The position numbers were made by a program, and so were the translations under genes. A stretch of 64,000 nt of DNA from Chloroflexota bacterium (lineage in GTDB: Bacteria; Chloroflexota; Anaerolineae; Anaerolineales; UBA4823), in assembly GCA_029265355.1 (NCBI GenBank), contig JAJUJL010000011.1, positions 1 to 64,000 of the forward strand. Reading direction: 5' to 3'. Shown here piece after piece: positions 6,887-30,600 of the stretch. Each line of letters opens with the position of its first letter. The stretch's first letter is position 1. The notes under the pieces were generated by a model, which worked only from the letters and a program-made list of their open reading frames with translations, was not told the origin of the DNA and did not search any database.

Positions 6887-7339
6887 ATGCAGGCGAATAA
6901 TCTCAGTCAAGGCGAAGCGATCGCCTTAAGTGACAAGCTGATCAACGGTTTGTTTGTCGGGATTTTGGCAGGTGTCGTGATGCTGGCGTTCCTGCTGCTG
7001 GCGGGTCTTGCGGCTGGCGAAGGGCCAACGGTGACACTCGCTCGTTTTTCGGTGCCGGGGCAAGAGACCACACCCATCGCCAGCGCCTTCCTGCACCTGG
7101 GGGTTTCGGCGGTGTACGGCGGTATATTTGGGTTGCTGTTTCATCTCCTTCCCCTTAAGATGAGGCTCGGGCCATGGAAATGGCTTGCCGGGCTGGTTTT
7201 TGGGTTACTGCTGTACCTGCTTGCCAGCGGCATACTGCTGCCAGCCTCCGGTTCGCTGCTGCTGGAAACCCCTGCCGTAGTTCTCGTCGCTGCCCACGCG
7301 GCGTATGGACTGGTATCAGGCATCTGGATCAAAGGTTAA
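6887..7339 (+). CDS. Small integral membrane protein, unknown function
   Basis: A 150-residue protein with four predicted transmembrane helices (~22-45, ~68-88, ~98-116, ~124-146) joined by short loops. I do not recognise the family. It is first in the plus-strand array and directly follows the candidate operator, but it does not share the RYRLxDID block of the seven proteins downstream. The ATG at 6887 is preferred because AGAGGTG lies 5-11 bases upstream. An ATG at 6863 would add eight residues without a ribosome-binding site. The next gene starts 16 bases after its stop, so it is probably co-transcribed with the array. Confidence 0.65.
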   Translation: MQANNLSQGEAIALSDKLINGLFVGILAGVVMLAFLLLAGLAAGEGPTVTLARFSVPGQETTPIASAFLHLGVSAVYGGIFGLLFHLLPLKMRLGPWKWLAGLVFGLLLYLLASGILLPASGSLLLETPAVVLVAAHAAYGLVSGIWIKG

Positions 7340-7355
7340 GCGAAGCAACAAACTT

Positions 7356-8582
7356 ATGAGAGCGAAAATCGCCGGATGGCTTCCCTGGGCGCTGTTTGCA
7401 ATTGCCAGCATAGCCGCAGTAGTAACGATTGGACTCGATCTTGTCGGCTCGAACCAGTCTGTCACCCTGGCTTATATTCTTTACAACTCAATCTGGAGTC
7501 TGTTTTCAATCGTATTCACGTTCTTATCAGCACTGGTTCTTTCACGCCAGCCGCACCACACCGTCGGCTGGCTGCTCATGATCCCAGGAATAGATGTTGC
7601 GCTTCTTGGACCCGTCGATGGCTACGTGAACAGCCTGCCCTCAGCGCCGGCCGCGCCGGGCACAGTTTTGTTATTGGTGATTTGGGCTCAGCAGTGGATC
7701 TGGCTGCCGCTCATCTTCCCATTGCTGCTTATTCCGCTTTACTTTCCCACCGGGCAGCCGCCTTCGCCGCGTTGGCGCTGGGTATCCAGCCTGGCGCTGG
7801 GGATGTGCGTGTTCTTCTTCTTTGCAGCCACATTTTCAAAGTCATTGGACGCACGGAATGCAGGCTGGGCAGTAGTAAACCCAATTGGGTTCCTGCCGGA
7901 CCTTGCCGCGATATGGCCTTTCTGGTTCCTAAGCCTGGGCATTTTGACCACGGCTTCTGTAGCAGCGCTGCTGGTGCGTTTTCAAAAAGGCACAGCGGTC
8001 GAACGCCAGCAGATCAAATGGCTGCTGTATGCCTGTGCGCTGTTCGCTGCATTCTACGTGACTTCTCTATTCTTAGATGATAGCATCCGATCCGGGATTA
8101 TATGGGACATTATCTTTGCCCTCGTCATCTGGCCGATACCAATATCCATCGCCCTCTCCATCCTGCGCTACCGGCTGTGGGATATCGATATCCTCATCCG
8201 GCGCACACTGGTATACTCGCTGCTGACAGGTCTACTGGCGCTGCTGTACTTCGGCAGCGTCACCCTGCTGCAGGGCATCTTCACCGCCCTGGGCGGCTCG
8301 CAGTCAACCGCCGCCACAGTCATTTCTACCCTGGCGATCGCCGCCCTGTCCAACCCGCTGCGCCGCCGCTTTCAGAATTTCATTGATCAGCGCTTCTACC
8401 GCCAGAAATTCGATGCTGAGCTGTCGCTGCAGGGATTCGCTGCCGTTGCGCGCAGCGAAACAGAACCGGAAAGGCTGACCAAAAGCATGCTGGAAATTGT
8501 CCAAACCGCCATACAGCCGGAGCGAGACTTTATCTGGCTGAAATCACAGGCGGTCCAACGACCCCATAAATGGATGAAGTAA
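7356..8582 (+). CDS. Kinase-less 7TM sensor-like protein, array member 1
   Basis: Paralogue 1 of seven in tandem. About seven hydrophobic helices occupy residues 1-270. The shared landmarks are a GWLL turn after the second helix, a YFPTG motif before the fourth, RYRLWDIDILIRRTL after the seventh, a further hydrophobic hairpin, FNPLRRR-like SNPLRRR, and a charged helix (FIDQRFYRQKFDAE). The protein ends about 50 residues later at a conserved FIWL. In Chloroflexota this fold is the input part of some sensor kinases, but here no kinase or other output domain follows. The start at 7356 is chosen over an in-frame ATG at 7305, which lies inside the previous gene. The function is presumably signal reception, and the ligand is unknown. 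Confidence 0.7.
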   Translation: MRAKIAGWLPWALFAIASIAAVVTIGLDLVGSNQSVTLAYILYNSIWSLFSIVFTFLSALVLSRQPHHTVGWLLMIPGIDVALLGPVDGYVNSLPSAPAAPGTVLLLVIWAQQWIWLPLIFPLLLIPLYFPTGQPPSPRWRWVSSLALGMCVFFFFAATFSKSLDARNAGWAVVNPIGFLPDLAAIWPFWFLSLGILTTASVAALLVRFQKGTAVERQQIKWLLYACALFAAFYVTSLFLDDSIRSGIIWDIIFALVIWPIPISIALSILRYRLWDIDILIRRTLVYSLLTGLLALLYFGSVTLLQGIFTALGGSQSTAATVISTLAIAALSNPLRRRFQNFIDQRFYRQKFDAELSLQGFAAVARSETEPERLTKSMLEIVQTAIQPERDFIWLKSQAVQRPHKWMK

Positions 8583-10081
8583 TGATCAATACGCCAAGTG
8601 CCAATCCTGAAACCCGCTTTGACCGGGGAGCACGGCAGCTGCTGCTGTTCGCGCTGCTTTTCATCGCGCTGGACTTCGCCCAACTTGCTTACCGGTTCAC
8701 GCTGCCCACGGAAGGCTGGGCAATCGACACGAATAGCAACGAATCAGGTGACTATAATTTTTACGTGATTGAGAATATCGTAGGCGCACCGTCACCGCTG
8801 CAGCCGGGCGATGCGCTGCACGTTATTGGAGGAGTCCCGGCGGAACAAATCTCCAATGGAAAAGTTTTATTCAGCCCGCCGCCAGAAGGCTGGCGGGCTG
8901 GGAGCGAGGTGCCCGTCACCGTCATCCGGGATGGGCAGGAACTGAACTTCGATATCCCGATCGTCAACTGGACCTTTACAGCCTGGCTGCGCGCCAATTT
9001 CACAGGGCTCGAGCGCCTGATTTCATGGCTGAACACTTTGATTATTTTCGGCGTTGGTCTGTTCACTTTTCTCAAACGCCCCGGCAATCTTTCCGCTCGC
9101 TTTTTATTTCTTTTCGGACTCGCCAGCCTTGCCATGCTGATTTCCGGATTTCTGCCAGACGGTCTGGGGGTGTTATTCAGCGGGTTTGCCGCATTTGGGA
9201 AAGCGGTGTTCAGCTACGTGATTTTCTCCTATCTCTTCGGACCGGCGCTGCTTGGATTCGCGCTTACTTTTCCGCGCCCCAAAGCAATCATCCACCGCCG
9301 CCCTTGGCTGCTGCTGATTCCATTCATGATCGGCAGCATCGCCCCAGTGCTGCTTTTCATCAAGCCATCCCTGGCAGCAGTCGGTTTTCCGATCACGTTG
9401 GGGATGGTCTTGGCAGCCATTGCCGGGCTGGTGCACAGCGCCTTGACGATGCGCGATGCCATCAGCCGCGCCCAACTGCGCTGGGCAGTCGGTGGTGTGG
9501 TTCTTGGATTGGGATTATTTCTTCTGAATTATCCGAGCATCGCCGTCACAGGCTTACTCCGGCAGACGATTTTATTGCTGGCAAACATGGGCCTGCCCGT
9601 GATGAGCCTCTCCCTGGCAGTAGCCATCCTGCGCTACCGGCTGTATGACATCGATCTGGTTATCCGGCGTACACTGGTTTACTCACTCCTGACAATTTTG
9701 CTGGCGCTGGTTTACTCCGGCAGTGTGACCGTGCTGCAAGGGTTCTTCACGGCTCTGGGCGGATCGCAGTCCACACTCGCTACAGTGATCTCCACCCTGG
9801 CGATAGCCGCCCTGTTCAACCCGCTGCGCCGGCGCATCCAGGATTTCATCGACCAGCGCTTCTACCGCCAGAAGTATGATGCCGAACAGGCTTTGGCTCT
9901 ATTCAATGAAGCCGCCCGCAGCGAAACCGACCTGCAGGCGCTGGTGAACCGCCTGGTATCCGTCGTAACGGAAACCACCCAGCCCGAGAACGTGCTGGTG
10001 TGGCTGGACCCAATGGCAGAGCGTCGCCGAACGATCAGCGAAGCCGCTCCCACACCGGCTGGTAAGCAGGCCAATAGATGA
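8582..10081 (+). CDS. Kinase-less 7TM sensor-like protein with PDZ-like insert, array member 2
   Basis: Paralogue 2, 499 residues. It differs from its siblings by an extracytoplasmic region of ~85 residues between the first and second helix. There LQPGDALHVIGGVPAE and a later VTVIRDGQEL have the look of a PDZ domain, a peptide- or substrate-binding fold. The shared C-terminal block is intact (RYRLYDIDLVIRRTL, FNPLRRRIQDFIDQRFYRQKYDAE) and the chain ends soon after VLVWL, without an output domain. The ATG at 8582 overlaps the stop of member 1 as TAATG, so translation is probably coupled. An in-frame ATG at 8570 is also possible. Confidence 0.7.
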   Translation: MINTPSANPETRFDRGARQLLLFALLFIALDFAQLAYRFTLPTEGWAIDTNSNESGDYNFYVIENIVGAPSPLQPGDALHVIGGVPAEQISNGKVLFSPPPEGWRAGSEVPVTVIRDGQELNFDIPIVNWTFTAWLRANFTGLERLISWLNTLIIFGVGLFTFLKRPGNLSARFLFLFGLASLAMLISGFLPDGLGVLFSGFAAFGKAVFSYVIFSYLFGPALLGFALTFPRPKAIIHRRPWLLLIPFMIGSIAPVLLFIKPSLAAVGFPITLGMVLAAIAGLVHSALTMRDAISRAQLRWAVGGVVLGLGLFLLNYPSIAVTGLLRQTILLLANMGLPVMSLSLAVAILRYRLYDIDLVIRRTLVYSLLTILLALVYSGSVTVLQGFFTALGGSQSTLATVISTLAIAALFNPLRRRIQDFIDQRFYRQKYDAEQALALFNEAARSETDLQALVNRLVSVVTETTQPENVLVWLDPMAERRRTISEAAPTPAGKQANR

Positions 10082-11343
10082 CACGCTCCTCTGGTTTACA
10101 AGCAAGCCGGCGCTCCGCCGTGACAGGCGTCTGGCTGCTCTTGCTTCTCATGCTGCTGCTGACGCTGGCGGCAGCCCCCTATCGCTACCGGGAGCTGTCC
10201 GTAACCTGCACCGGCGCTCACTGCCTGAACGACAACATGCTGCTGCAGTCCGAAACCGCCGCCGTGCTGACCGGGCTTGGCATTACCCTGCGGCAGTATG
10301 CCGTCTTCATGCTCGGCACATCCTTCCTGCAGCTTGTGATAAGCTGGTCGCTGGCAGCTCTGCTGCTGCGGCGGCCCGAGCTGGATCGCATGGCGCTCCT
10401 GGTCGCCGTCTACCTGAGCCTGGGCGGGTTCTCCAACCCGGTATTGAATGCCCTGCCCCCCGCCCTGCACTGGACAGCCATACCGGTGGCGGTGATCCTG
10501 TATGCCGGGTATTTGTCCTTCATCCTGGTGTTTTATTTATTCCCGGATGGTCGCTTCATTCCCCCCTGGACGAAATGGTTGGCGCTGCTGCTGGCAGCCA
10601 ACGAATTGATCTATACTATCCTCACTACCTTCACCCTGGTCTCCGGCCAGGGCATTGCCGGCGGATGGTACGAGTTCCTCGAAGGCTCCATCTGGCTGGG
10701 GTCCTTCCTGGCGATCGCTACCACGCAAGTCTACCGCTACTTCCGCGTCTCCGGGCCTGTGCAGCGGGTGCAAACCCGCTGGGTGGTCTTCGGGTCTTCG
10801 CTCGCCCTGGTGATCGGGGTTGCCCTGGCGCTGATCGGCGCAGCCGGCGCAAATACCCTGGGACCTCAATATCGCCTGCTGACCATCATTATCTGGTCCT
10901 GGCTGCCTTTGTCCATCCTGCTTTCTTTAGGAATCGCCATGCTGCGCTACCGGTTGTGGGATATCGACATCCTCATCCGCCGCACACTGCAGTACAGCCT
11001 GGTTTCCGCTTTGCTGGTAGGGGTTTACTTTGGCAGCGTCACCCTGCTGCAAGGCGTTTTCACCTCCCTGGGTGGAGCGCAGTCCACCGCCGCCACCGTC
11101 ATCTCCACCCTGGCGATTGCTGCCCTGTTCAATCCCCTGCGCAGGCGCATTCAGGATTTCATCGACCGGCTCTTCTACCGCAGCAAGTACGATGCCGAGC
11201 AGGCTCTGGCAGAGTTCGCCACCGTCGCCCGCAGCGAAACCAACCTGGAGCAGCTCTCAGCCCGTCTGACCGACACTGTTCAGGAGACAATGCAGCCAAA
11301 TCAGATCAACCTGTGGTTGAAAACTCAGGGAAGAACCCAATGA
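10078..11343 (+). CDS. Kinase-less 7TM sensor-like protein, array member 3
   Basis: Paralogue 3, 421 residues. It overlaps the previous gene by four bases (ATGA), a sign of translational coupling. Seven to eight hydrophobic helices are visible. LFPDGRF marks the FPxG motif and RYRLWDIDILIRRTLQ the conserved block. FNPLRRRIQDFIDRLFYRSKYDAE is followed by the short tail ending at INLWLK. The loop after helix 1 contains CTGAHC, a possible extracytoplasmic disulfide not seen in the neighbours. There is no effector domain. A longer overlapping frame begins at 10575 on the same strand, but it is a shadow of this gene until 11340. Confidence 0.7.
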   Translation: MTRSSGLQASRRSAVTGVWLLLLLMLLLTLAAAPYRYRELSVTCTGAHCLNDNMLLQSETAAVLTGLGITLRQYAVFMLGTSFLQLVISWSLAALLLRRPELDRMALLVAVYLSLGGFSNPVLNALPPALHWTAIPVAVILYAGYLSFILVFYLFPDGRFIPPWTKWLALLLAANELIYTILTTFTLVSGQGIAGGWYEFLEGSIWLGSFLAIATTQVYRYFRVSGPVQRVQTRWVVFGSSLALVIGVALALIGAAGANTLGPQYRLLTIIIWSWLPLSILLSLGIAMLRYRLWDIDILIRRTLQYSLVSALLVGVYFGSVTLLQGVFTSLGGAQSTAATVISTLAIAALFNPLRRRIQDFIDRLFYRSKYDAEQALAEFATVARSETNLEQLSARLTDTVQETMQPNQINLWLKTQGRTQ

Positions 11344-13712
11344 ATATTTCCTGGGAACGCATCGCGCCGTGGATGATGGCCCTGGCTGCACTGGTCATCT
11401 TGCCTGGTTCAGTCATCCTGATCCTGATGAACCCGGCAGGGCATGATGAAAGAGTCTGGGAATTTCTCACCGGGGCGGTTTTTGGTTGCGGAGCGCCTAT
11501 CCTGGGTCTGGTTATCTTGAGACACCAGCCGCGCAACCGTATCGGCTGGTTGTGGTTAGTTATTGGCCTCACGATCGCCTTTGGCAGCCTGTCTCAAGGA
11601 CTTAAATATTATACAAACAGCAACCCATCCACCGATTATTCGAGCCTGATATTTACGATCTTGTTATTCAGTGAAACGGCTTACATCCTCCGGTTCATCT
11701 GCCTGATGCTATTGATGCTCTGGTTCCCGGATGGGAAACCCCCAACCCCGCGCTGGCGTATCCTGCACCTATGGGTGGTCTTATCGTTCATTCTGCTGAC
11801 ATTGGAACTCTTTGCACAGAAAGTGCCCTGGTCGAATGTTGAAGGTCTTGTCAGGGGAGCGCCGCTTGTCGACAACCCCATTGGTTTCCTGCCTGTGGCG
11901 CTCAGCCCAATCTACGAGTTGATGGCGCCGATTGGTTTCCTTTCAATTGTTGGGATGTCCTTGCTCGCCGCCCTGGCTATGCTACTCAGGTATCGCTCGG
12001 CCACGCAGCAGGTGCGGGCGCAAATCCTGTGGTTTGCCGTAGGAGGGGTAATTTATGCATCCAGCTTCGTAGCTTCCATCGCATTGATCGACTATTCAAC
12101 CTTACTACCGGGTGTTCTGACAAATCTGGCTATTCTGCCGTTTTACCTGGCGATTGGTATTGCTATCACACGCTACCAGCTCTACGATATCAGTGTCTTC
12201 ATCCGCAGAACGCTTCAGTATTCCCTGGTAACGGCGGTGCTTGCGTTGGTCTATTTTGGCAGTGTGACCGTGCTGCAGAGCCTGTTTGCTTCTTTCAGCG
12301 GGCAGCAGTCAACGCTCGCCATCGTGCTCTCCACCCTGGCAATCGCCGCCCTGTTCAATCCGCTGCGCCGCAGGGTGCAGGCGGCGGTCGACCAGCGTTT
12401 CTACCGCCAGAAGTACGATGCGGATCAAGCGCTGTCGGATTTTGCGGCGGCGGCGCGCAGCCAGGCCGATCTGTCTCAACTGGTGGAGCAGTTGAACAAG
12501 GTGGTGCAGCTCACCATCCAGCCGGCGTCGGTGTCGATCTGGCTGTACTCACTCAACACGCCCAGGCAGCCGCACACTCCGGTCAAGGCTGGCAGCACAC
12601 CATTCCTGCCGAGAATGAGCCAAATTGAAAAAGCACAGAGAGCGCCAGGCTTCAACCCTCTGCTGGCAGGCGGCTTGCTGCTGATTGTCGTCGCGGCGAT
12701 GCTCTTTATTTATCAAATTATCCGGCAAAACGCCGCCCAGCGGCTCGAATTCGATCCGCTGCCTCTCAGCGAGAACATCAGGCCGGTGATCATCGACACC
12801 GATATGGCGCCCGACGACTGGATGGCGATCCTGTTCCTGCTGAAGCGCCCCGAAATCGACGTCCTGGCGATCACGGTGAGCGGAACCGGCGAAGCGCACT
12901 GCGAACCCGGCGTGCGCAATACCCTGGGGCTGCTCGCTCTCGCCGGGCGATCGGGCATCCCGGTCGCCTGCGGGCAGGAAACGCCCTTAGAAGGAAATCA
13001 CGTCTTCCCGGATGACTGGCGCTCCAATGCCGATACGATGAGCGGCCTGGAGCTGCCCCAGGTTGAGCTTCCAGCGGGCGATGAAGGCGCTGTGGATCTG
13101 CTCACCCGCCTGGCGCTGGAATCTCCCAGGAAAGTGTCTATCCTGACATTGGGCCCCCTCACCAACCTGGCGCAGTCCGTACAGCAAGAACCGGCGCTGG
13201 TGGAGCGCGTCGAAACAGTGGTGATCATGGGCGGGGCGCTGGCGGTTCCCGGCAACGTCGGCTTCTCGGGAGCCGATATCGACAACCAGATTGCCGAATG
13301 GAACTTCTATATCGACCCATTAGCAGTTAAAATAGTATTTGGGTCTGGTTTACCTGTTTTGCTGGTGCCGCTGGATGCCACAAATGATGTACCGCTTGGC
13401 AGTGTATTTTTCCGCATGCTCAAAGCCAACCGGCGCACGCCCGAAGCCGAGTTCGTGTACCAGGTGCTGGCGAAGATGCAGGATTTCATCGCTTCCGGTA
13501 GGTATTATTTTTGGGACCCGCTGGCGGCCGGCTTGCTGGTGGATCCGAGCCTGGGCGCCATCACGGAAGGCAAGGTCAAAGTGTTTACCGCCGAAGGGCC
13601 AAACTCAGGCCTGGTCCGTGTGATGGCAGACGGCAACCCGATCCGCTACGCCACCTCGGCTGAGCGCGATCGTTTCTACGACGAATTTTTACGCACGCTC
13701 AACCAACCCTAA
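11340..13712 (+). CDS. 7TM sensor-like protein fused to a nucleoside hydrolase, array member 4
   Basis: Residues 1-410 are paralogue 4 of the array (GWLWLVIG, WFPDGK, a divergent RYQLYDISVFIRRTL, FNPLRRRVQ). An extra helix at ~438-460 follows. Residues ~480-790 are a complete inosine-uridine-preferring nucleoside hydrolase domain, an enzyme that splits ribonucleosides into base and ribose. It shows the calcium-binding DTDMAPDD, the LGPLTNLA and VIMGGAL segments, AEWNFYIDPLA, and WDPLAA near the end. The usual catalytic His of the HDP motif is replaced by Trp here. The extra helix would place the hydrolase outside the cytoplasm. The start at 11340 overlaps the preceding stop as ATGA. This is one uninterrupted frame, so the fusion is real unless the assembly is wrong. 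Confidence 0.8.
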   Translation: MNISWERIAPWMMALAALVILPGSVILILMNPAGHDERVWEFLTGAVFGCGAPILGLVILRHQPRNRIGWLWLVIGLTIAFGSLSQGLKYYTNSNPSTDYSSLIFTILLFSETAYILRFICLMLLMLWFPDGKPPTPRWRILHLWVVLSFILLTLELFAQKVPWSNVEGLVRGAPLVDNPIGFLPVALSPIYELMAPIGFLSIVGMSLLAALAMLLRYRSATQQVRAQILWFAVGGVIYASSFVASIALIDYSTLLPGVLTNLAILPFYLAIGIAITRYQLYDISVFIRRTLQYSLVTAVLALVYFGSVTVLQSLFASFSGQQSTLAIVLSTLAIAALFNPLRRRVQAAVDQRFYRQKYDADQALSDFAAAARSQADLSQLVEQLNKVVQLTIQPASVSIWLYSLNTPRQPHTPVKAGSTPFLPRMSQIEKAQRAPGFNPLLAGGLLLIVVAAMLFIYQIIRQNAAQRLEFDPLPLSENIRPVIIDTDMAPDDWMAILFLLKRPEIDVLAITVSGTGEAHCEPGVRNTLGLLALAGRSGIPVACGQETPLEGNHVFPDDWRSNADTMSGLELPQVELPAGDEGAVDLLTRLALESPRKVSILTLGPLTNLAQSVQQEPALVERVETVVIMGGALAVPGNVGFSGADIDNQIAEWNFYIDPLAVKIVFGSGLPVLLVPLDATNDVPLGSVFFRMLKANRRTPEAEFVYQVLAKMQDFIASGRYYFWDPLAAGLLVDPSLGAITEGKVKVFTAEGPNSGLVRVMADGNPIRYATSAERDRFYDEFLRTLNQP

Positions 13713-13722
13713 GGAGGAAAAA

Positions 13723-15069
13723 ATGGCTCAGTCATCCACCCAGGAACGCTTCAAGCGCGGGGCTGCCGACGCCGGGCGCTATTTCAAATACATGGCAGAT
13801 TTCGTCGGCTTCAGCGAGGAGGACCGGCAGGCAATCAAAGATTCCCGCTTCATCGTCGAGAAGCACATTCCCGCGATTGTAGGGCGCTTTTACGTGCAGC
13901 TTCTGCGCTACCCCGCCACGCGCAAGTTCTTTCTGAAGAAAGATGGCACGGTGGACCAGGCCTACCTATCGATGCGCATGCAGCACCAGGTGAGCTTTTG
14001 GCGGCGCACCGCCTCCGCCGGCCTCAGCGAAGACTACGCCCGCTTCACAGATTACGTTGGTAGGGCGCACACCTCGCGCGGCGCCGACCCCAAAATCTAC
14101 ATCCCCGAGCGCTATGTGATCGGCATGGTCGGCTTCGTGCAGCACAACTTGATGGAAGCGCTTCACGCCGAGCTGCACGAGATCGATCCAGAGCTGGAAG
14201 CGCGCGCCGCCAAAGGTTGGAGCAAGCTGCTCACCGTGCTGCTGGAGATGCTCACCCGCGCTTACGGCGAGGAGCATCTGTCCGAGACTTTCACTGCGCC
14301 GGACGAGGTCGACGATCAGGCGCTGATGGATCTCTCCATCGAAACCTACGAGCGCTCGCTGGGCATCGCCGATTCGATTGAGACCATCACTTATATTGTG
14401 GGGAAAGTGGATGACATCCCGGAGGGATCACGCAGGATCATCCAGGTGGAGGATCTGTCGATCGGCGTCTTCCACCACAAGGGCCAATGGTACGCCCTGC
14501 ACAACTCCTGCCTGCACCGCGGCGGGCCGGTGTGCACTGGCACCCTGGAGGATGACACCATCACCTGTCCTTGGCACGGCTACCAGTACAATCTGCCGGA
14601 CGGCAGGCTGCTGCTCGACGAGGACGCCACCCTACCAATGTACCCGGTCGAGATTGTGAATGGGGTGGTACAAATCACAGTTCCCATCCTGGTGCGCGAC
14701 CCATTGGAGTTTTCAATGTCCTTTGACGAGTTTTCACAGCCTGCGCCTGAACCGCCCAAACAGCTTGCACCAAACCAGTTCCTGGCAGAAGAGCTAAAGC
14801 CAGGACAGGTACGGCTGGTGCACGTCGATGGCGAGCGCGTGGCAGCGGTCAATGTTGATGGCGAGTATTATGCCATCCACGACGAATGTTCGCATGTTGG
14901 CGGCCCATTGAGCGAAGGAGAAGTCAAAGGCCACCAGCTCATCTGCCCGTGGCACGCCTCGTGCTTCGATGTGCGCGATGGATCGGTGCAATGCGGCCCG
15001 GCGAAAGAGCCGGTCAAGGCTTACCGGGTGAGCATCTCCGCTGGTATCGCCACGGTGCAGGCCGGGTAG
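13723..15069 (+). CDS. Protoglobin fused to two Rieske [2Fe-2S] domains
   Basis: Soluble 448-residue protein. Residues ~10-190 are a protoglobin/globin-coupled-sensor domain, with the proximal haem ligand in YVGRAH (H116) and the typical preceding HQVSFWRR helix. Residues ~225-322 are a Rieske domain with ligands C263, H265, C282 and H285 (CLH and CPWH). Residues ~352-448 are a second Rieske domain with C389, H391, C408 and H411 (CSH and CPWH). Rieske ferredoxin domains carry single electrons, and protoglobins bind O2, NO or CO. The combination suggests a gas-binding haem that exchanges electrons with its own clusters, for example an NO or O2 reductase or a redox sensor. No catalytic mononuclear-iron domain is present. 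It starts 10 bases after member 4 with a good AAGGAGG site. Confidence 0.85.
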   Translation: MAQSSTQERFKRGAADAGRYFKYMADFVGFSEEDRQAIKDSRFIVEKHIPAIVGRFYVQLLRYPATRKFFLKKDGTVDQAYLSMRMQHQVSFWRRTASAGLSEDYARFTDYVGRAHTSRGADPKIYIPERYVIGMVGFVQHNLMEALHAELHEIDPELEARAAKGWSKLLTVLLEMLTRAYGEEHLSETFTAPDEVDDQALMDLSIETYERSLGIADSIETITYIVGKVDDIPEGSRRIIQVEDLSIGVFHHKGQWYALHNSCLHRGGPVCTGTLEDDTITCPWHGYQYNLPDGRLLLDEDATLPMYPVEIVNGVVQITVPILVRDPLEFSMSFDEFSQPAPEPPKQLAPNQFLAEELKPGQVRLVHVDGERVAAVNVDGEYYAIHDECSHVGGPLSEGEVKGHQLICPWHASCFDVRDGSVQCGPAKEPVKAYRVSISAGIATVQAG

Positions 15070-15117
15070 CCGGGAGCTTTTCCTCGTGGTAGACCCCATG
15101 AATAGAGACGGGCACTG

Positions 15118-16389
15118 ATGCAGCCTCGCCATTTCTTGATGGCTTCCAGAGCGCTCAGCGTGGTCTCGCTGGTGTTCATTGCGTGCAGCCAGGTTCTTTT
15201 CACGTTGAACCGGCAAACCATTGTGCCAGAGTCGTGGGCGCATGCCGGTGGAACGCGTGAGAGCCTGGCGAGCTGGCTGAGCTTCAGTGCCCTGAGTTTT
15301 ATACTGCCGGCTGCCGCCGGGTTGCTCGGTCTATTGGTGATTTCACAACATAGCCACCACCCGATCGGCTGGATGCTCGCTTTCCTGGGAATGGCAGCCT
15401 CGCTCAGCACCTGCGCCCAGGAATGGGCCATCTACGGCTACTACACCATGCCTGGAGGTCTGCCTGGGGCGACCTTCGCCGCCTGGTTCACCAATTGGTC
15501 CTGGATGATCATGGTCAGTATCCTGCTGTGGATGCTGGCTATCTTCCCGGAAGGCAGGCTGATGCCCGGCTTCCTGGGCGCCAGTTTTATCACGACATAC
15601 TGGGCGTTTTTCCTGCCGACTTTTGCCGGTTCCAACCTGGAGGCGCGCTACTCCTCTGCCTTTCAAATTCCCAGCCCGTTGATCAAAGAGACGCCGCAGA
15701 TGCTGTATGACACTTTGTTCGCCATCGGCATGCCAGCTATGGCGCTCTCTGCGCTGGTGCTCGCCGGCACGGTCTGGGCGCGCTGGCAAAGCTCCACCCC
15801 GGTTATGCGCCAGCAGATCAAATGGCTGATTGTGGGGGTTGGCTTCATGACTGGCATGATCACCGTTGGCCTGGGCCTGAGCGTTGGCGCCGGCCTTACC
15901 CTGGGTGAACAACTGGTGAATAACGCTACCCTGGCTCCCTTGCTGGCAATTGGCGTCGCCATCTCCCGTTACCGCCTGTATGACATTGACATTATTATCC
16001 GGCGCACGTTGGTCTACTCGCTGCTCACGATCATGCTGGCAGCATTATATTTCAGCGGGATCACAATCTTGCAGGCTCTGGTCAACTCTTTTACCGGACA
16101 GCAATCCACACTGACAATTGTGATCTCGACCCTGCTCATCGCAGCGCTGTTCAATCCCTTGCTCCAGCGAACCCAGACTTTCATCGATCAGCGTTTCTAC
16201 CGCCAGCGCTACGATGCAGACCAGGCGCTGGCTGGTTTCGCACACGCCGCGCGCAGCGAAGTTGAAATCAGCAGCCTGGCAAATGAGCTGCTGAGCACCG
16301 TCAGCGAGACCGTGCAGCCAGAACGCGCCAGCCTGTGGCTCAAACGCGGTGATCTGCACGCCAAATCCCAATTTCGAACCAGCAAATGA
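15118..16389 (+). CDS. Kinase-less 7TM sensor-like protein, array member 5
   Basis: Paralogue 5, 423 residues, resuming the array after the globin-Rieske gene. It has the family landmarks HPIGWML after helix 2, IFPEGRLMPG, RYRLYDIDIIIRRTL, FNPLLQRTQTFIDQRFYRQRYDAD and a tail ending at ASLWLK. No kinase, phosphatase or nucleotide-binding motif follows. The gap of 48 bases to the previous stop leaves room for ribosome binding but no obvious promoter, so it is likely in the same transcript. Confidence 0.7.
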   Translation: MQPRHFLMASRALSVVSLVFIACSQVLFTLNRQTIVPESWAHAGGTRESLASWLSFSALSFILPAAAGLLGLLVISQHSHHPIGWMLAFLGMAASLSTCAQEWAIYGYYTMPGGLPGATFAAWFTNWSWMIMVSILLWMLAIFPEGRLMPGFLGASFITTYWAFFLPTFAGSNLEARYSSAFQIPSPLIKETPQMLYDTLFAIGMPAMALSALVLAGTVWARWQSSTPVMRQQIKWLIVGVGFMTGMITVGLGLSVGAGLTLGEQLVNNATLAPLLAIGVAISRYRLYDIDIIIRRTLVYSLLTIMLAALYFSGITILQALVNSFTGQQSTLTIVISTLLIAALFNPLLQRTQTFIDQRFYRQRYDADQALAGFAHAARSEVEISSLANELLSTVSETVQPERASLWLKRGDLHAKSQFRTSK

Positions 16390-17675
16390 CAAATGGAGAG
16401 CTAATCAAGATGCTGACTGCACAGGCTTCCACGATCTTACGCCCTCCCTGGCTCAACCTGGCGCGCGCCGCGTGGATCATCGCCTCCGTCGCGGCCCTGG
16501 CGGCGTTCATTGCCGAGCTTACCGTGATTCTGCCTGCACCCATGCAGGACTGCACCGACCCCGCAGTCTTGTGCGGACCCTGGCATGTCGGGCAAAAGGA
16601 TATTGCCCTGGGGGAAACGTTGAACATCCCTGGTCAGCTCCTGGTATGCGTGTACGTGTTCAACAGCGTCTTTCCCAGGATTGCGTTCTTCCTGGTGGGG
16701 TTGGTGATCTTCTTACGACGATCGAACGACTGGATCGCCCTGCTGCTGTCGCTCATGCTGACCACGTTTTTGGTAGAAGGCGTGCAGAACCTGGGGAATT
16801 TCATGCCTGTGGTGCACCTCATCTATGCCGTTGCCACCGCCGCCTTTGTATTGCTGCCTTTTGTTTTTCCCAGCGGGCGGATTGTGCCTGGATGGATGGC
16901 ATGGATTGTTCCACCTTTGCTGCTAGCAACCCTCTTTGCCATCCTTTCACCCTATCTGGGCATTCAGATCGATGAACAAATCTATGCCATACTCTCACTG
17001 GGGGCATTCTTCCCTTGGTTTCTTAGCGGCGGCTATGCCGCCACCTATCGCTACCGCAGAGTTTCGAACGCCATCGAACGCCAGCAAACCAAATGGGTGA
17101 TGGCAGGCATCCTGGGAACTTTCATCCTCTTCATTCCCTTCACAATTATCTCGATTTACTTCCCGCCCTCCAACCCAACGCCGGAACGCCTGGCATTCGT
17201 CTACTTGATCTACATTCCAATCGGTCTGTTAGGTTATCTGTTCATTCCGATCTCCATCAGCATCGCCATCTTCCGCTACCGCCTGTGGGATATCGACCTC
17301 ATCATCCGCCGCACGCTGGTCTATTCCAGCCTCACCCTCCTGCTGGCGCTGGTCTATTTTGGTAGCATCACCCTGCTACAAAGCCTGCTCTCAGCTATCA
17401 CCGAGCAGCAATCCACGGCAGCAGTTGTGATATCCACGCTGGGCATCGCCGCCCTGTTCAATCCGCTGCGCCGCAGGATCCAGGAGGCCATCGACCGCCG
17501 CTTTTACCGCCACAAGTACGATGCCGAGCAGGCGTTGGGCAAATTTGCCGCCGTTGCGCGCAGTGAAGTCGATTTAGCCCGCCTGAATGAGACCTTGATC
17601 CAGATTTCCCACGAAACCTTGCAGCCTGAAACCGTCTCGCTGTCGCTGACAGACCGCTCGCAAACACGCCAATAA
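16386..17675 (+). CDS. Kinase-less 7TM sensor-like protein, array member 6
   Basis: Paralogue 6, 429 residues, starting at an ATGA overlap with member 5. A second in-frame ATG at 16410 has a better GGAGAG upstream and would shorten it by eight residues. The first extracytoplasmic loop is Cys-rich (MQDCTDPAVLCGPW), suggesting a disulfide. VFPSGRIVPGWM, RYRLWDIDLIIRRTL and FNPLRRRIQEAIDRRFYRHKYDAE are intact, and the chain ends shortly after VSLSL. Like its siblings it lacks an output domain. Confidence 0.7.
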   Translation: MTNGELIKMLTAQASTILRPPWLNLARAAWIIASVAALAAFIAELTVILPAPMQDCTDPAVLCGPWHVGQKDIALGETLNIPGQLLVCVYVFNSVFPRIAFFLVGLVIFLRRSNDWIALLLSLMLTTFLVEGVQNLGNFMPVVHLIYAVATAAFVLLPFVFPSGRIVPGWMAWIVPPLLLATLFAILSPYLGIQIDEQIYAILSLGAFFPWFLSGGYAATYRYRRVSNAIERQQTKWVMAGILGTFILFIPFTIISIYFPPSNPTPERLAFVYLIYIPIGLLGYLFIPISISIAIFRYRLWDIDLIIRRTLVYSSLTLLLALVYFGSITLLQSLLSAITEQQSTAAVVISTLGIAALFNPLRRRIQEAIDRRFYRHKYDAEQALGKFAAVARSEVDLARLNETLIQISHETLQPETVSLSLTDRSQTRQ

Positions 17676-17688
17676 AGAGCACAATCAG

Positions 17689-18945
17689 ATGACAACGAAC
17701 CTGAATATCAAAGCGTTTTCCGGTTGGCTGGCATTGGCGCTCAGCCTGGCAGTCACCACCGCAAATGCTGCTCTCCCTGCAGCAGGCTGCCGTAGTTTCG
17801 CTTCTCAATGGAGCGAGGATACCGCCAACATCATCGCAATTACGGGCATGATGCTTTCTGGATTGTTGTTTGCGGTGATCGGGCGCTTATTGACAATCTA
17901 TCGCTCTGAAAACCGCATCGGCTGGTTGATGACCATCCTGGGCGTGGCCTTACCATTGAATTCGGCGCTCTCGAATTATATGGAGTGTGCCATCACACCA
18001 GAGTCGTCACTGCCTTTTGCCGGGCTCAGCGCCTGGTTGGTGATGATTCTCGCTACGCTCTCGATCCTGCTGTTGTTCGTTCTCCTGCCGACGCTTTACC
18101 CGACCGGGCACTTCATCTCGAAAGGATGGAGATCGGCCATCCTCAGCTCGCTGTCTGTGCCGCTTTTCCTGGCCGCACTGGCTGCAGTCGCCCCGGGACC
18201 AATGACCCTCAACGGCATCACAGGAGCGATGCCGATCGACAATCCATTTGGATTGCCCTTGCCGTGGCTGCGCCACTTGGAAGCAGTCTTGTTCTCCGGA
18301 ATCCCTCTAACCACGATCCTTGCCATTCTGATCAGCATCGCCGCTTTTATCACCCGCTTTCGCAGATCGTCCGGGGATGAGCGCCAGCAGTTCAAATGGT
18401 TTGCCTATTTCTTAATGACCGTGGTTTTCGTGCATGTGGCGGGGTTCGAGGTCATCGGAGCGGTCTTCTATCCGCCGCTCTTCGAGCACTGGAGCTACGG
18501 CCTGGTGGTTGCAGTTTCGTTCAACGGCTTCCCGCTGGTGATCGGGCTGGCAATCTTCAAATACCGGCTGTACGACATCGACCTGATCATCCGCCGCACG
18601 CTGGCCTATTCCATGCTGACTGCTCTGCTCGCCCTGGTCTACTTTACCATTGTGACTTTACTGCAAGGCCTGTTTGCCACCTTCAGCCGGCAGCAGTCCA
18701 CCGCCGCCGTGGTTATCTCCACCCTGGCGATTGCCGCCCTGTTCAACCCGCTGCGCCTGCGCCTGCAGGCTTTCATCGACCGGCGCTTCTACCGGCGGGG
18801 CTACGACGCGCAGAAGACGCTGGAAAACTTTGCTGCCCAGACGCGCAACGATGTGGAGCTGGCAAATCTGACCGAGGGTCTGCTGCATTCCATCCAGAGC
18901 GCCTTGCAGCCAGAAAAGATCTCCCTGTGGCTCAAAAAAGGGTGA
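17689..18945 (+). CDS. Kinase-less 7TM sensor-like protein, array member 7
   Basis: Paralogue 7 and last of the array, 418 residues. Landmarks are ENRIGWLMTILG, LYPTGHFISKGW, KYRLYDIDLIIRRTL, FNPLRLRLQAFIDRRFYRRGYDAQ and the terminal ISLWLKKG. The N-terminal helix is followed by a Cys-containing loop (AAGCRSF) and there is MECAIT in a second loop. It lies 13 bases after member 6. Only five bases separate its stop from the second candidate operator, so the downstream phosphatase operon is likely both read through and independently started. Confidence 0.7.
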   Translation: MTTNLNIKAFSGWLALALSLAVTTANAALPAAGCRSFASQWSEDTANIIAITGMMLSGLLFAVIGRLLTIYRSENRIGWLMTILGVALPLNSALSNYMECAITPESSLPFAGLSAWLVMILATLSILLLFVLLPTLYPTGHFISKGWRSAILSSLSVPLFLAALAAVAPGPMTLNGITGAMPIDNPFGLPLPWLRHLEAVLFSGIPLTTILAILISIAAFITRFRRSSGDERQQFKWFAYFLMTVVFVHVAGFEVIGAVFYPPLFEHWSYGLVVAVSFNGFPLVIGLAIFKYRLYDIDLIIRRTLAYSMLTALLALVYFTIVTLLQGLFATFSRQQSTAAVVISTLAIAALFNPLRLRLQAFIDRRFYRRGYDAQKTLENFAAQTRNDVELANLTEGLLHSIQSALQPEKISLWLKKG

Positions 18946-19033: not shown

Positions 19034-20635
19034 ATGAGTGCATTTTTCCAGCGGATACGTCTCTTCTTCGGTAGTAAGCAAACGGCTGATGCGCCGGATG
19101 CGATTAACGGCGCGGCGCGATCACAGGAAGCAGGCGCTGAAAAGGCAGCCTCAATGCAGGCCCAGGTTGAGAACTTGGATATTCCACCCAATGACCCCTT
19201 GCTCGCTTACCTGATCAGCACCGCCAGCGCGGTGGAGATCGATAAACTCAGCATGAACTCCCCCACCCTGGAGCGGCTGCGCCAGGCAGGCGTGAAGATC
19301 AGCGTGCCGCTGGTCAGCCAGGGCGAGCTGATCGGCCTGCTCAACCTGGGCAACCGCCTAAGCGAGCAGGAGTACTCCACCGACGACCGCCGCCTGCTCA
19401 ACAACCTGGCCTCCCAGGCTGCTCCGGCGCTGCGCGTCGCCCAGCTTGCTTACCAGCAGCAGCTCCAGGCCCGCGAACGTGAGCGCCTGGAACAGGAGCT
19501 GCGCGTGGCGCGCTTTATCCAGCAAAACCTGCTGCCCAGGGAGCTGCCGCAGATGCCCGGCTGGAACATCGCCGCCTTCTGGCAGCCGGCGCGCGAGGTC
19601 AGCGGCGACTTTTACGACTTCATCACCATGCCCGACGGGCGCCTGGCATTTCTGGTCGCCGATGTCACCGATAAAGGCGTGCCGGCCTCGCTGGTGATGG
19701 CGACCACCCGCTCTCTACTGCGCAGCAATGCCGAAAAGTACATCTCACCCGGCAAGGTGCTGGAAACCACCAATAATCTGCTGTATCCGGACATTCCTGA
19801 GAAGATGTTTGTCACCTGTCTGTACGGCGTGCTGGACCCACAAAGCGGTGAAATTGTGCTCGCTAATGCCGGTCACAACCTACCTTATCAGCACACCAAA
19901 GAAGGCATCCTGGAGCGGCGCGTGCGCGGCATGCCGCTCGGTTTGATGCCCGGTATGGTTTACAACGAGATCACTATAAAGATGAACCCTGGCGACACCT
20001 TGCTGCTCACCAGCGACGGGCTGGTGGAGGCGCACAACGCCCAGCGTGAGATGTTCGGCTTCGACCGGGTCAAGGCGCTGGTCGCCGAGTATAAAGACGG
20101 CGACATGGTTCAGGCGATTTTGCAGGCTTTCCAGTCTTTCACTGGCCCTGATTACGTACAAGAAGATGATATGACGCTTGTGACCCTCACCTTCCAACCC
20201 GTCCAATCCGGCGCGGGCAATCCCCAACCGATCACTTTCGAAGTCCCCAGCCAACCCGGCAATGAGCGGCAGGCTGCCGCCCGCGTGCTCGCCGTTCTGG
20301 AGCACCTCCATCTCGATATCACCCGTCAAAAGCGTCTCGAGACCGCTGTCGCAGAAGCGACGATGAACGCCATGGAACACGGCAATGGCTATAACCCCGA
20401 CTTGCTCGTTAAGATCACCGTGATTCAAGAACCGGATAAGCTCACCATACAAGTCGCCGACCAGGGCAGCGGCGCTCCCATCCCCACCAGCGTCGACCCT
20501 GACCTGGATGCCAAGTTGGCGGGCTTGCAGTCGCCGCGCGGCTGGGGATTGTTCTTGATCAAGAATATGGTCGATGAGTTGAACACATACCATGACCCGA
20601 GCGGCAGCACCATCGAGCTGGTTGTTAATTTGTAA
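19034..20635 (+). CDS. GAF-PP2C phosphatase-RsbW kinase fusion (partner switching)
   Basis: A 533-residue soluble signalling protein. Residues ~50-140 are a GAF-like domain without its N-terminal part, followed by a coiled coil. Residues ~155-395 are a SpoIIE/RsbU-type PP2C phosphatase with metal-binding motifs SGDFYDF, LVADVTDKGVPA, NAGHNLP, TSDGLVE and DDMTLVTL. Residues ~400-533 are an RsbW/HATPase_c serine kinase with N-box EATMNAMEHGN, VADQGSG and GWGLFLIKN. The phosphatase would dephosphorylate, and the kinase phosphorylate, a STAS protein such as the two encoded immediately downstream. Having both opposing activities in one chain is unusual, although such fusions are known. No sigma factor is encoded nearby, so the final target is unknown. 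Confidence 0.85.
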   Translation: MSAFFQRIRLFFGSKQTADAPDAINGAARSQEAGAEKAASMQAQVENLDIPPNDPLLAYLISTASAVEIDKLSMNSPTLERLRQAGVKISVPLVSQGELIGLLNLGNRLSEQEYSTDDRRLLNNLASQAAPALRVAQLAYQQQLQARERERLEQELRVARFIQQNLLPRELPQMPGWNIAAFWQPAREVSGDFYDFITMPDGRLAFLVADVTDKGVPASLVMATTRSLLRSNAEKYISPGKVLETTNNLLYPDIPEKMFVTCLYGVLDPQSGEIVLANAGHNLPYQHTKEGILERRVRGMPLGLMPGMVYNEITIKMNPGDTLLLTSDGLVEAHNAQREMFGFDRVKALVAEYKDGDMVQAILQAFQSFTGPDYVQEDDMTLVTLTFQPVQSGAGNPQPITFEVPSQPGNERQAAARVLAVLEHLHLDITRQKRLETAVAEATMNAMEHGNGYNPDLLVKITVIQEPDKLTIQVADQGSGAPIPTSVDPDLDAKLAGLQSPRGWGLFLIKNMVDELNTYHDPSGSTIELVVNL

Positions 20636-20656: not shown

Positions 20657-21001
20657 ATGACCACTTCTGAATTCGAAGCCCAGGTTCGCAGACAGGAACA
20701 GATCGTTATCATCGATATGCAGGGTGTGATCAACTCGGACGCCGAATCTGGCCTGAGCGCCGCGTACGAACAGGCGGAGGCTGCCAGCAGTCAGACTATC
20801 GTCTTGAATTTTAGCCAGGTAGATTACATCAACAGCACCGGTATTGCCCTGATCGTGGGTCTGTTAGCCCGGGCGCGCAAGAGCCATAAGATCCTGGCGG
20901 TATTTGGTCTGAGCGACCATTACCGCGAGATTTTCAATATCACCCGCCTGGCGGATTTCATGCAAATCTACCAGGATGAAGCCAGCCTGTTGGCAGCCTG
21001 A
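20657..21001 (+). CDS. STAS-domain anti-sigma-factor antagonist
   Basis: A 114-residue single STAS domain like SpoIIAA/RsbV. The phosphorylatable serine lies in DYINSTGIALIVGLL. Unphosphorylated STAS proteins bind an RsbW-type kinase and release its partner. It lies 21 bases downstream of the PP2C-RsbW fusion, the obvious modifying enzyme, and upstream of a second STAS gene with which it shares the YxxIFxxTRL segment. It is probably expressed as one operon from the promoter at 18951-19003. Confidence 0.85.
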   Translation: MTTSEFEAQVRRQEQIVIIDMQGVINSDAESGLSAAYEQAEAASSQTIVLNFSQVDYINSTGIALIVGLLARARKSHKILAVFGLSDHYREIFNITRLADFMQIYQDEASLLAA

Positions 21002-21033
21002 ACCTGATTACCTGTTCCCCGGAGGAAACGAAC

Positions 21034-21387
21034 ATGCCTGAAGCGAAACTAACCACCGCGATCCGCAAACCTGCCGAGAGCGTCGCCATTATTGACCTCG
21101 AGGGAGAGGTCACTGGCTTCGCCGAGCAGATGTTGATGGACGCCTACAACCAGGCCAGCAATGGCAAAACCCGCACGATCATTCTCAACTTTAGCCGCCT
21201 GGATTACATGAACAGCTCCGGCATTGGTTTGCTGGTCACCTTGCTGATCCGCGCCCAGCGCCAGAAGCAGTCCATGTTCGCTTGCGGGCTGACCGAGCAC
21301 TATGTGCAAATCTTCGAGCTAACCCGCCTCAATGAAGCGATTGGCATCTTCCCTGGTGAAGCCGAAGCCGTGGCTGCGGCAGCCTGA
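21034..21387 (+). CDS. STAS-domain anti-sigma-factor antagonist, second copy
   Basis: A 117-residue STAS domain similar to the one just upstream. The candidate phospho-serine is in DYMNSSGIGLLVTLL. A clear CCGGAGG ribosome-binding site precedes the ATG. Two tandem STAS proteins behind one switch enzyme suggest two outputs, or a heterodimer, controlled by the same phosphatase/kinase. The chain ends with an alanine-rich tail. Confidence 0.85.
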   Translation: MPEAKLTTAIRKPAESVAIIDLEGEVTGFAEQMLMDAYNQASNGKTRTIILNFSRLDYMNSSGIGLLVTLLIRAQRQKQSMFACGLTEHYVQIFELTRLNEAIGIFPGEAEAVAAAA

Positions 21388-27546: not shown

Positions 27547-27659
27547 TAGGTGTTTCGCCGGAAATGTTTTTACAAAGATGTGAACGATCACCAGCGAAAC
27601 CCTGGAGTAAACCGCCGTCGCGATGGCCGATTTACTCTAAACACTTTCGGCGGTTTACT
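27547..27659 (+). repeat. Left 113-bp inverted repeat
   Basis: Begins TAGGTGTTTCGCCGG and ends CTTTCGGCGGTTTACT. It contains two nested hairpins: GTTTCGCCGG with the imperfect CCAGCGAAAC, and GAGTAAACCGCCG with CGGCGGTTTACTC. The nine mismatches to the right copy lie mostly in the loops. The RHS reading frame opens inside this repeat. Confidence 0.8.
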
Positions 27660-30600
27660 CAGTATGACGGCCCAGCGACCAACGACGGCGCACACTCGGC
27701 GCTGGTGCACGACTACCTGGAAGATCTATATGGGGATGCCTTTGATGAGTTCCGCGGCCACGCTGCCGTGCGCGAGCAGTCGTCGGATGGCTACGTTACC
27801 ACCAGCTTCTTCCATCAAGATGACGACCTGACAGGTCGCAGCAGCGTGAGCCTGGTGGGAACGCAGAGCTACTACCAGCCGTTCTCAGAAACGAGCTGGA
27901 GCAGTTACAGCAGCGCCTGGACCTACTGGACGACTCAACCGACTTTCGAGCGCCAGGAAGGCGACATCTCCGCTAAGGTAACCTACTCCGGCGGGGGCTG
28001 GCAGGGCATGCTGCACCGCAACAGCTACAGCCTGACGAGCGGCAAAAACGCTGTTGTGCAGTTCAGGGTAGCCGAAGATGCCGGTGGAAATCAGGAAGCG
28101 GTATTTGCACTGGAAAGTGGGACGATCGGCAGTAACTATCAGAGCTGGCGCGTCTACCTCAAGCAAGACGGCAGCCTGTGGAGCAGCTACTGCACCACTT
28201 CAGGCGGCTCAACCACTTGCTCGTTTCAAAACCAACTCTATTCTGCTAACGAATTTAAATTGAATACCTGGTACGTGCTGGCACTCATCGCCGACAATAC
28301 CAACGGCTTCTACCTGCGGGTTTGGCCGCGCGAAGATCCTGGCAGCGTCAAAAGTGACCGCAGGAGCTTCAGCATCGCCAGCTGGCGCTTCGCGGGGTAC
28401 GTGAATTACGGCGCCATGTGGCTGGACGAATATAGCGAAGGTGTGCTGTATTCGCTCGGCAGCAGCGAGGCCGATACCGATGAAGGCATCTTCGCGACAT
28501 CGGGCATGTTCGATGACTATCCTGACCTGAGCATCGACTGGACGCGCACCCTGACCGAGACGCAGCTCAGCTTTGAGGGCACCAGCCGCTGGCAGGGCAC
28601 GCGCCGCTACCTGCAGTATCGCCCGGAGGAGCAGAAGATCGCGGGCGTACCACGCCAGTACGGCAACGTCACACGGGTGGTGGAATCCGAATGGGATCCA
28701 TCCGCCGGAAACTGGCGCGATGTGCGCCTCACCCAGATGGAACACTTTCCCAACATCAGCGGTGTTAACCTGGTGGGGCTGCCGGGCTACCAGAACGTGT
28801 ACCAGTGCCCGGCGGGCAGCCACGACCGTTCCTGCTCTGACCAATACACGGACCCCCCGCCAGAAGCGCAGCTGCGCAGCTCGCACTGGTTTATGTATGA
28901 TTACAACCCGCATTATTATGATCCGCCATCTGGCAACGTGCCTGGTGGCGTGCTGACTGGCGAGCGCACCCTTTTACGCTTTGCCGGGGCAAACTACACC
29001 GACCCGCGCTATGGGGACGTTTCATACATCTACGATGCCTGGGGCAACCAGAAGACCGTGAACGCCTACCGCAGCGAAGCGACGTACGGCGCCATGTTCC
29101 AGGGGACGGTCAGCGTGACGACCGCATGCTATGGCTACTACAATGGCACGTCTTGCGTCGACGATGATCCTTACCACACCTTCCCAGGCTGGACGAAGAA
29201 TGCCCTGACCCCGGATCAGTACACTCGCTTCCAGTATAGCTACGACTACGCCCAGCCGGTGTGGATCCAGGATGCCAACGAGCAAATCACACAGGCGGAG
29301 TACGACGATTTTGGACGGATTAGCCTGATCCGCCGCCCGGGCGACGAGAGCGGCGCGCCGACAATGACCTTTGCCTACGTGAACGACACCGGCAGCGGCG
29401 TGCCTTTCTACACCGATGCCACGCAGAAGATCGACAGCAGCACCACCTACCGTATCCGCAAGTACTACAACGGGCTGGGCTGGCTGCTGCAAACGCAGGT
29501 GATCGGGGCCAATATCGATAGTGCAACGAAAGATATCCTGGTGGACAACTACTACGACAACGCCGGTAAGGTGTGGAAGCAATCTGTACCGTACGCCGTG
29601 GACACAGGCAGCGAGCCTTCCTGGCACGGTCGGGATGGTAACCAGCTCGCAAGTGTGATCTCTTACGACTCACTGGGGCGGGTAGTGCAAGTGCTGGCGC
29701 CGGATACCACCCAGCAAAATACGGCTTACGGCTTCGACGTGAGCACGAACCGCATGCTGGTGAAAAGCTACGATCCGCGCTACCCGGCAAACGAATCCTA
29801 CACCACCAAAACCTACAGCGACTCCTGGGGCAGGACGGTGCAGGTGCAGCCGCCTACCGGACCAGGGGTGAGCTACGTTTACGATATCCTGGACCGGCTG
29901 ACGGACGTGTATTACGGCAGCCCTCACACCATCCTGACCTACGACCTCGCCGGGCGCAAAACACAGATGGTCGACCCCGACATGGGAACCTGGCAGTATG
30001 GCTATGATGCGACAGGCAACCTGACCAGCCAGACGGATGCCCGCGGCTGCGTGACTAGCCTGAGCTACGATCTGCTGAACCGCCCGACGGGAAAGAGCTT
30101 CAGCGGGAGCTGCGGCGCGGGTGGAACGAGCGTGACCTACGGGTATGACTACGGGCAGTATGGCCGCGGCTACCGCACCAGCATGATCGATGGCTCGGGC
30201 AGCACCTCCTGGAGCTACGACCAGCGCGGGCGGCTACGGCTGGAAGATAAGACCATCACCGGCTCGGGCAGGTTCGTCACCGAGTGGAGCTACAACTCAG
30301 CCGATCTGGTAGAATGGATGAAGTATCCGGGCGATAACCTCGGAAACGCTGGAGAGAAAGTTACTTACAACTACCACCCGCAGATGCTGATCAAGAACTT
30401 CCACCTCGATAGCGATACCGATCCCGACTATTTTTACCTGCAGAATGCCAGCTACGACGCCGCCGGTCGACCCGACCAATTGAAATTGGGAGCGGACACC
30501 TTGCTGGACACATCGCCGGAGCTGGTGCAGGATCACGATTACTTTGCCTGGGACAGGCTCTACGGGTTGGGGCGGCTGAAGGCGCTGAAGACTCAGACCG

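Follow-up and report, generated by a model that had tools for sequence, protein, structure and literature searches.

A gene in the 64,000-nucleotide stretch of Chloroflexota DNA analysed here (the window) encodes a 448-residue protein in which a protoglobin domain is followed by two Rieske iron-sulphur domains. Judged by its sequence conservation, this layout is a conserved family in Anaerolineae and not a chance fusion. We tentatively favour the explanation that the protein is a redox-wired haemoprotein, in which electrons from the clusters would reach a gas-binding haem, with turnover of NO or O2 as the most likely outcome. The gene and its surroundings comprise the following features:

7305-11343, + strand: three upstream F1 membrane-sensor genes (7305-8582, 8570-10081 and 10078-11343; clustering, search)
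11346-13712, + strand: gene joining an F1 membrane domain to an inosine-uridine nucleoside hydrolase (PF01156, E 1e-57; start codon provisional)
13713-13717, + strand: GGAGG ribosome-binding site, with the ATG of the globin-Rieske gene 5 bases further on
13723-15069, + strand: globin-Rieske-Rieske gene, 448 amino acids, open reading frame starting with ATG
13765-14277, + strand: protoglobin domain, residues ~15-185 (Pfam, 2VEB alignment, fold, conservation)
13891-13893, + strand: codon of the distal Y57 (alignment to 2VEB)
14068-14070, + strand: codon of the proximal H116 (alignment to 2VEB)
14314-14361, + strand: linker helix, residues 198-213 (AlphaFold model)
14377-14691, + strand: Rieske-1, NirD-like, residues 219-323, ligands C263, H265, C282 and H285 (Pfam, fold, conservation)
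14692-14775, + strand: flexible low-confidence linker, residues 324-351 (pLDDT under 50 at residues 325-345)
14776-15063, + strand: Rieske-2, dioxygenase-ferredoxin-like, residues 352-447, ligands C389, H391, C408 and H411 (Pfam, fold, conservation)
15118-18945, + strand: three downstream F1 membrane-sensor genes (15118-16389, 16386-17675 and 17689-18945; clustering, search)
19034-20635, + strand: GAF + SpoIIE phosphatase + HATPase protein, RsbU/RsbW-like (Pfam)
20657-21384, + strand: two STAS-domain proteins, anti-sigma antagonist-like (Pfam)

The first-pass annotation of this DNA had described a protoglobin, then two Rieske domains and nothing else, and both Pfam and the AlphaFold2 fold matches bear this out. 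Pfam places Protoglobin at residues 21-185 (E 4e-25), with 89 bits where the cut-off is 25, and Rieske twice (E 9e-38 for the protein), with no further family. An AlphaFold2 model built with 18 homologues predicts three separate folds (mean pLDDT 82.7). The individual domains appear well defined in this model; their mutual arrangement is uncertain because the pTM is 0.56. A search of the protein for a C-terminal transmitter (cyclase, EAL, kinase, MCP or STAS) returned Rieske families only. Likewise, there was no Pfam match to a FAD/NAD-binding reductase domain and no match to the catalytic alpha domain of Rieske non-haem iron oxygenases, and Rieske-2 ends the protein.

Model residues ~16-183 were matched by VIA-align to globin-coupled-sensor and protoglobin structures with Z scores of 15-19, among them the AfGcHK sensor domain (Z 19.3) and the Methanosarcina acetivorans protoglobin 2VEB (Z 17.2). 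Profile alignment to 2VEB pairs H116 with the proximal His120 and Y57 with the distal Tyr61. This agrees with the earlier assignment of H116 as the haem histidine, as does family conservation: the proximal His is kept in all 27 members that cover the position. The family shows hardly any variation at the proximal His, at the B10 Tyr and over much of the globin core, so that haem ligand binding is likely to be under selection too. Alignment to protoglobins puts E11 at Q89, and this likely E11 position holds Gln, Leu or Asn across the family; a gapless comparison with HemAT would presumably move E11 by one residue, to the invariant H88. With Tyr at B10 and one of these three amino acids (Gln, Leu or Asn) at the presumed E11, the pocket would resemble, in general terms, those of O2-binding, NO-dioxygenating globins.

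In the globin tree, the domains of the family group together, apart from classical Chloroflexota protoglobins, and their nearest sampled relative is a globin-ThiS group. The tree leaves strict monophyly of the family globins unsupported, because one long-branch sequence falls among them. The sister globins (L124:989-1912, + strand, and also L125-L127) carry a C-terminal ThiS/MoaD-like segment, with a Pfam ThiS match in L124, where the following gene encodes an aldehyde ferredoxin oxidoreductase N-terminal domain.

Each Rieske domain had been credited with a complete CxH/CxxH set, and both sets are present as C263/H265/C282/H285 and C389/H391/C408/H411. The fold of Rieske-1 (model residues 219-323) matches M. 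tuberculosis NirD (4AIV, Z 15.9), and that of Rieske-2 (model residues 349-448) matches BphA3-type dioxygenase ferredoxins (Z ~18). The motifs, CLHRGG..CPWH in Rieske-1 and CSHVGG..CPWH in Rieske-2, lack the additional cysteines that form a disulphide in high-potential Rieske proteins of the bc1 type. Rieske domains without these cysteines are expected to have a low potential, and low potentials are therefore expected for both domains. The ligands are kept in 27 of 28 members for Rieske-1 and in all 24 members that have the domain for Rieske-2, counts that take in the window's own protein alongside its homologues. In the tree, Rieske-1 forms one clade (support 100/99) and Rieske-2 another (89/92). 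The two domains are therefore probably old and inherited together. We reject the idea that Rieske-2 is a recent copy of Rieske-1, given two separate clades at ~25% identity. A NirB partner was found neither among the window genes scanned nor among the scanned neighbours of homologues. In one homologue (L109:1483-2859, - strand), Rieske-1 is without ~16 residues including the first CxH, which may reflect either a genuine loss or an error in the assembly.

The first-pass annotation had also called the layout unfamiliar. It is indeed absent from the open literature that we searched, but it is not unique to this genome and belongs to a conserved Anaerolineae family with one to three Rieske domains. 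In the taxonomic family of the window's genome, 8 of 38 genomes carry it, and in a sample of the class 24 of 396 genomes match at E <= 1e-30, comprising 20 members and 4 matches over a Rieske domain only. Across 84,980 species genomes, scanning with two peptide patterns yielded 18 loci, all titled Chloroflexi/Anaerolineae, and could have missed distant members outside Chloroflexota. Merging the sets gives ~29 Chloroflexota genomes, and both domain order and ligands are preserved in homologues of 45-57% identity. The pattern scan of viral contigs found no relative, plasmid matches were to Rieske only, with no record covering 80% of the query, and the PDB sequence search returned globins and Rieske ferredoxins separately, with no fusion among the matches listed.

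The family varies around a constant core of globin and NirD-like Rieske-1, to which iron-sulphur modules of differing number and kind are added. Four members (L110, L111, L112 and L113) have a single Rieske domain, and a 545-residue protein (L104:2760-4394, - strand) has three, the second and third of which group in the Rieske-2 clade. The most elaborate layout is a single 616-residue open reading frame (L113:130-1977, - strand) that reads CDGSH, Fer4_19, CDGSH, protoglobin and one Rieske, so that a single polypeptide unites four types of redox domain. In L107 and L108, a CDGSH protein like that in the L113 fusion is encoded by a separate gene immediately upstream. Such variation of iron-sulphur modules around a constant core suggests an electron-transfer chain.

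By its predicted domain content, the protein fails the definitions of a globin-coupled sensor, a flavohaemoglobin, a Rieske oxygenase and an RsbR, because it has no transmitter, no FAD/NAD domain, no catalytic domain and no STAS. In flavohaemoglobin, the NO dioxygenase, the globin and its electron supply form one protein. The likeness is one of working principle, as flavohaemoglobin belongs to another globin family and uses a FAD/NAD domain, whereas here a protoglobin is joined to iron-sulphur domains. BphA3, CarAc and HcaC ferredoxins share fold and CxH..CxxH ligands with Rieske-2, and NirD does so with Rieske-1; these proteins are, however, free-standing or partnered with a non-haem oxygenase or NirB, and not fused to a haem globin. 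The globin fold, the proximal His and the B10 Tyr are common to globin-coupled sensors and protoglobin (AfGcHK, HemAT, GsGCS and M. acetivorans protoglobin; PF11563). Known globin-coupled sensors end in a cyclase, phosphodiesterase, kinase, chemotaxis or STAS domain, in contrast to the Rieske-only ending found here (PMC8846402, PMC4976288): reviews describe them with c-di-GMP enzymes (PMC8846402), and the stressosome paper describes a globin with a STAS domain (PMC4976288). A globin inserted in a redox protein is known from the hybrid nitrate reductase NR2-2/2HbN of the alga Heterosigma akashiwo, for which NO dioxygenation has been proposed (PMC9837059). Unlike the present protein, it places a truncated haemoglobin in a molybdenum enzyme without Rieske domains. 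In the open-licence literature, with subscription papers outside our scope, we found no description of a protoglobin or globin fused to Rieske or CDGSH. An uncommented InterPro architecture may exist, since the sequences are public.

We propose that this soluble protein would bind haem through H116 of its protoglobin domain, with Y57 over the distal face, and that the diatomic gas handled by the globin haem would be O2, NO or both. Single electrons donated by a reductase or ferredoxin of the cell would reach the haem by way of the two ferredoxin-type Rieske clusters, keeping it ferrous and letting it turn over, most likely in NO dioxygenation or NO/O2 reduction. Low-potential Rieske clusters could reduce a ferric globin. 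In the operon of the window, the state of the haem may also be read by partner-switching proteins. Sequence and model establish the domain order, the folds and the ligands, along with their conservation, whereas we infer cofactor occupancy, electron direction, substrate and detoxification as the outcome. The conserved haem and [2Fe-2S] ligands, the ferredoxin and NirD matches, the lack of a transmitter, the varying redox modules and the joint inheritance of two old Rieske clades argue for such wiring. Against it stand the lack of a usual reductase, the signalling neighbours in the window and at related loci, the L109 protein without its first CxH, and the low pTM of the model.

A candidate electron donor is suggested by a FAD/NAD(P)H-type oxidoreductase of one subfamily, encoded 6 bases downstream of the globin-Rieske gene in L072 and ~460 bases upstream in L061 (2 loci observed, 0.04 expected, P ~9e-4). 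Two relatives lie elsewhere in the window's genome at 62-63% identity, and the L131 copy is 63% identical to the L061 neighbour. The L072 and L061 enzymes are of the disulphide-reductase type (CTNDGCVPT), and electron donation by them to Rieske is therefore only a guess; enzymes of this type are not known to reduce Rieske proteins. A canonical Rieske-ferredoxin reductase is rejected as partner, as its standard domain, Reductase_C, gave no above-cut-off match in 15 carrier genomes. At most homologous loci, neither a redox partner nor NO-related genes adjoin. Taken together, the redox neighbours and the CDGSH/4Fe-4S fusion favour electron transfer.

The neighbourhood in the window raises a different possibility. 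The gene belongs to an unbroken series on one strand, made up of three F1 genes, the F1-hydrolase gene, globin-Rieske, three further F1 genes, GAF-SpoIIE-HATPase and two STAS genes. The F1-nucleoside hydrolase gene ends 10 bases before the globin-Rieske start, and the GGAGG adjoins its stop codon directly. The surrounding membrane array that had been claimed is real by sequence clustering and search: seven related membrane proteins at 7305-18945 account for 7 of the 10 F1 matches of the genome, and the F1 proteins have no Pfam match. SpoIIE and STAS are the machinery of RsbU/RsbV-type partner switching. The protein may thus be a redox-gated gas sensor of such a system, in which the Rieske clusters would set or report the oxidation state of the haem and F1, SpoIIE and STAS would read the ligand state of the globin. 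We regard this as possible, if somewhat doubtful.

In line with a sensory role, F1 matches are few per genome (1-10) yet cluster within 8 kb of globin-Rieske at 5 of ~27 homologous loci, in five genomes (0.31 expected, P ~2e-5, with the F1 density taken from five genomes picked for showing this link). A SpoIIE gene occurs in the same 8 kb range at 5 of ~27 loci (0.59 expected, P ~4e-4), and in L068 an RsbW-like HATPase gene overlaps the globin-Rieske start codon. However, these enrichments come from few, partly related and hence non-independent loci, many of them on short contigs, and signalling genes are abundant in the carrier genomes. Most homologues are without F1, SpoIIE or STAS neighbours; across the whole family we found no single conserved neighbourhood, and neighbours differ by lineage. 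Moreover, the protein itself bears no STAS or other output domain, and it is not obvious why a sensor would call for between one and three ferredoxin domains, or for a CDGSH module. In the lineage of the window itself, the co-operonic SpoIIE, STAS and membrane genes speak for a link to signalling. A published precedent resembles this operon: haem RsbR of the Vibrio brasiliensis stressosome, in which a haem globin controls partner switching (PMC4976288). RsbR carries its own STAS domain, whereas the present protein has none and two STAS genes stand in the operon instead. Because of the operon and of this known haem-globin control of a stressosome, sensing stands close behind enzymatic turnover as an explanation. 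The two are compatible, as either role could make use of clusters holding the haem in its ferrous state. Both had been suggested in the first-pass annotation, as an NO or O2 reductase with built-in electron supply or a redox-gated gas sensor, and both stay plausible.

We consider it unlikely that the protein senses redox potential or iron-sulphur status, with the clusters as input, the haem structural or secondary, and electrons running from haem to clusters or not flowing at all. The Rieske-1 ligands are conserved as well as those of the haem, and CDGSH proteins, which are typical of cluster sensing and transfer, occur as a fusion or as a neighbour in L113, L107 and L108, as such a role would have it; the near-invariant parts of the globin, the proximal His and B10 Tyr among them, speak against a secondary haem. 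A chance, decayed or mis-assembled fusion without joint function, to which the Rieske-1 deletion in L109 and a frameshift in L074 might point, is ruled out for practical purposes by the constant domain order in ~29 genomes at 45-57% identity, the kept ligands and the single clade formed by each Rieske domain.

For the redox-wired haemoprotein, a more far-reaching proposal, which we put forward as speculative and rather unlikely in its entirety, is a new class of haem proteins in Anaerolineae. In this class, Rieske clusters (with CDGSH/4Fe-4S in one relative) would reduce a gas-binding globin, and the resulting state of the haem would both turn over NO/O2 and be read by a partner-switching pathway of membrane array, SpoIIE and STAS. 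Enzymatic activity of a globin depends on a reductase, and a globin-coupled sensor depends on an output; the present protein has neither in known form and instead brings along iron-sulphur electron carriers. Should these clusters reduce the haem, the family would show a way, besides that of flavohaemoglobin, for a globin to supply itself with electrons. Should they gate sensing, gas and redox input would be tied to partner switching in a phylum with little-known signalling. As a single soluble protein of 448 residues with two spectroscopic handles, it makes the function of such globins directly testable.

Two minor observations concern the same genome. At G000:C27:59032-63000 (L131), a relative of the reductase is encoded directly upstream of an 844-residue F1-GAF-SpoIIE protein. 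Within the window, positions 27564-31400 (+ strand) encode a 1278-residue protein with RHS repeats.
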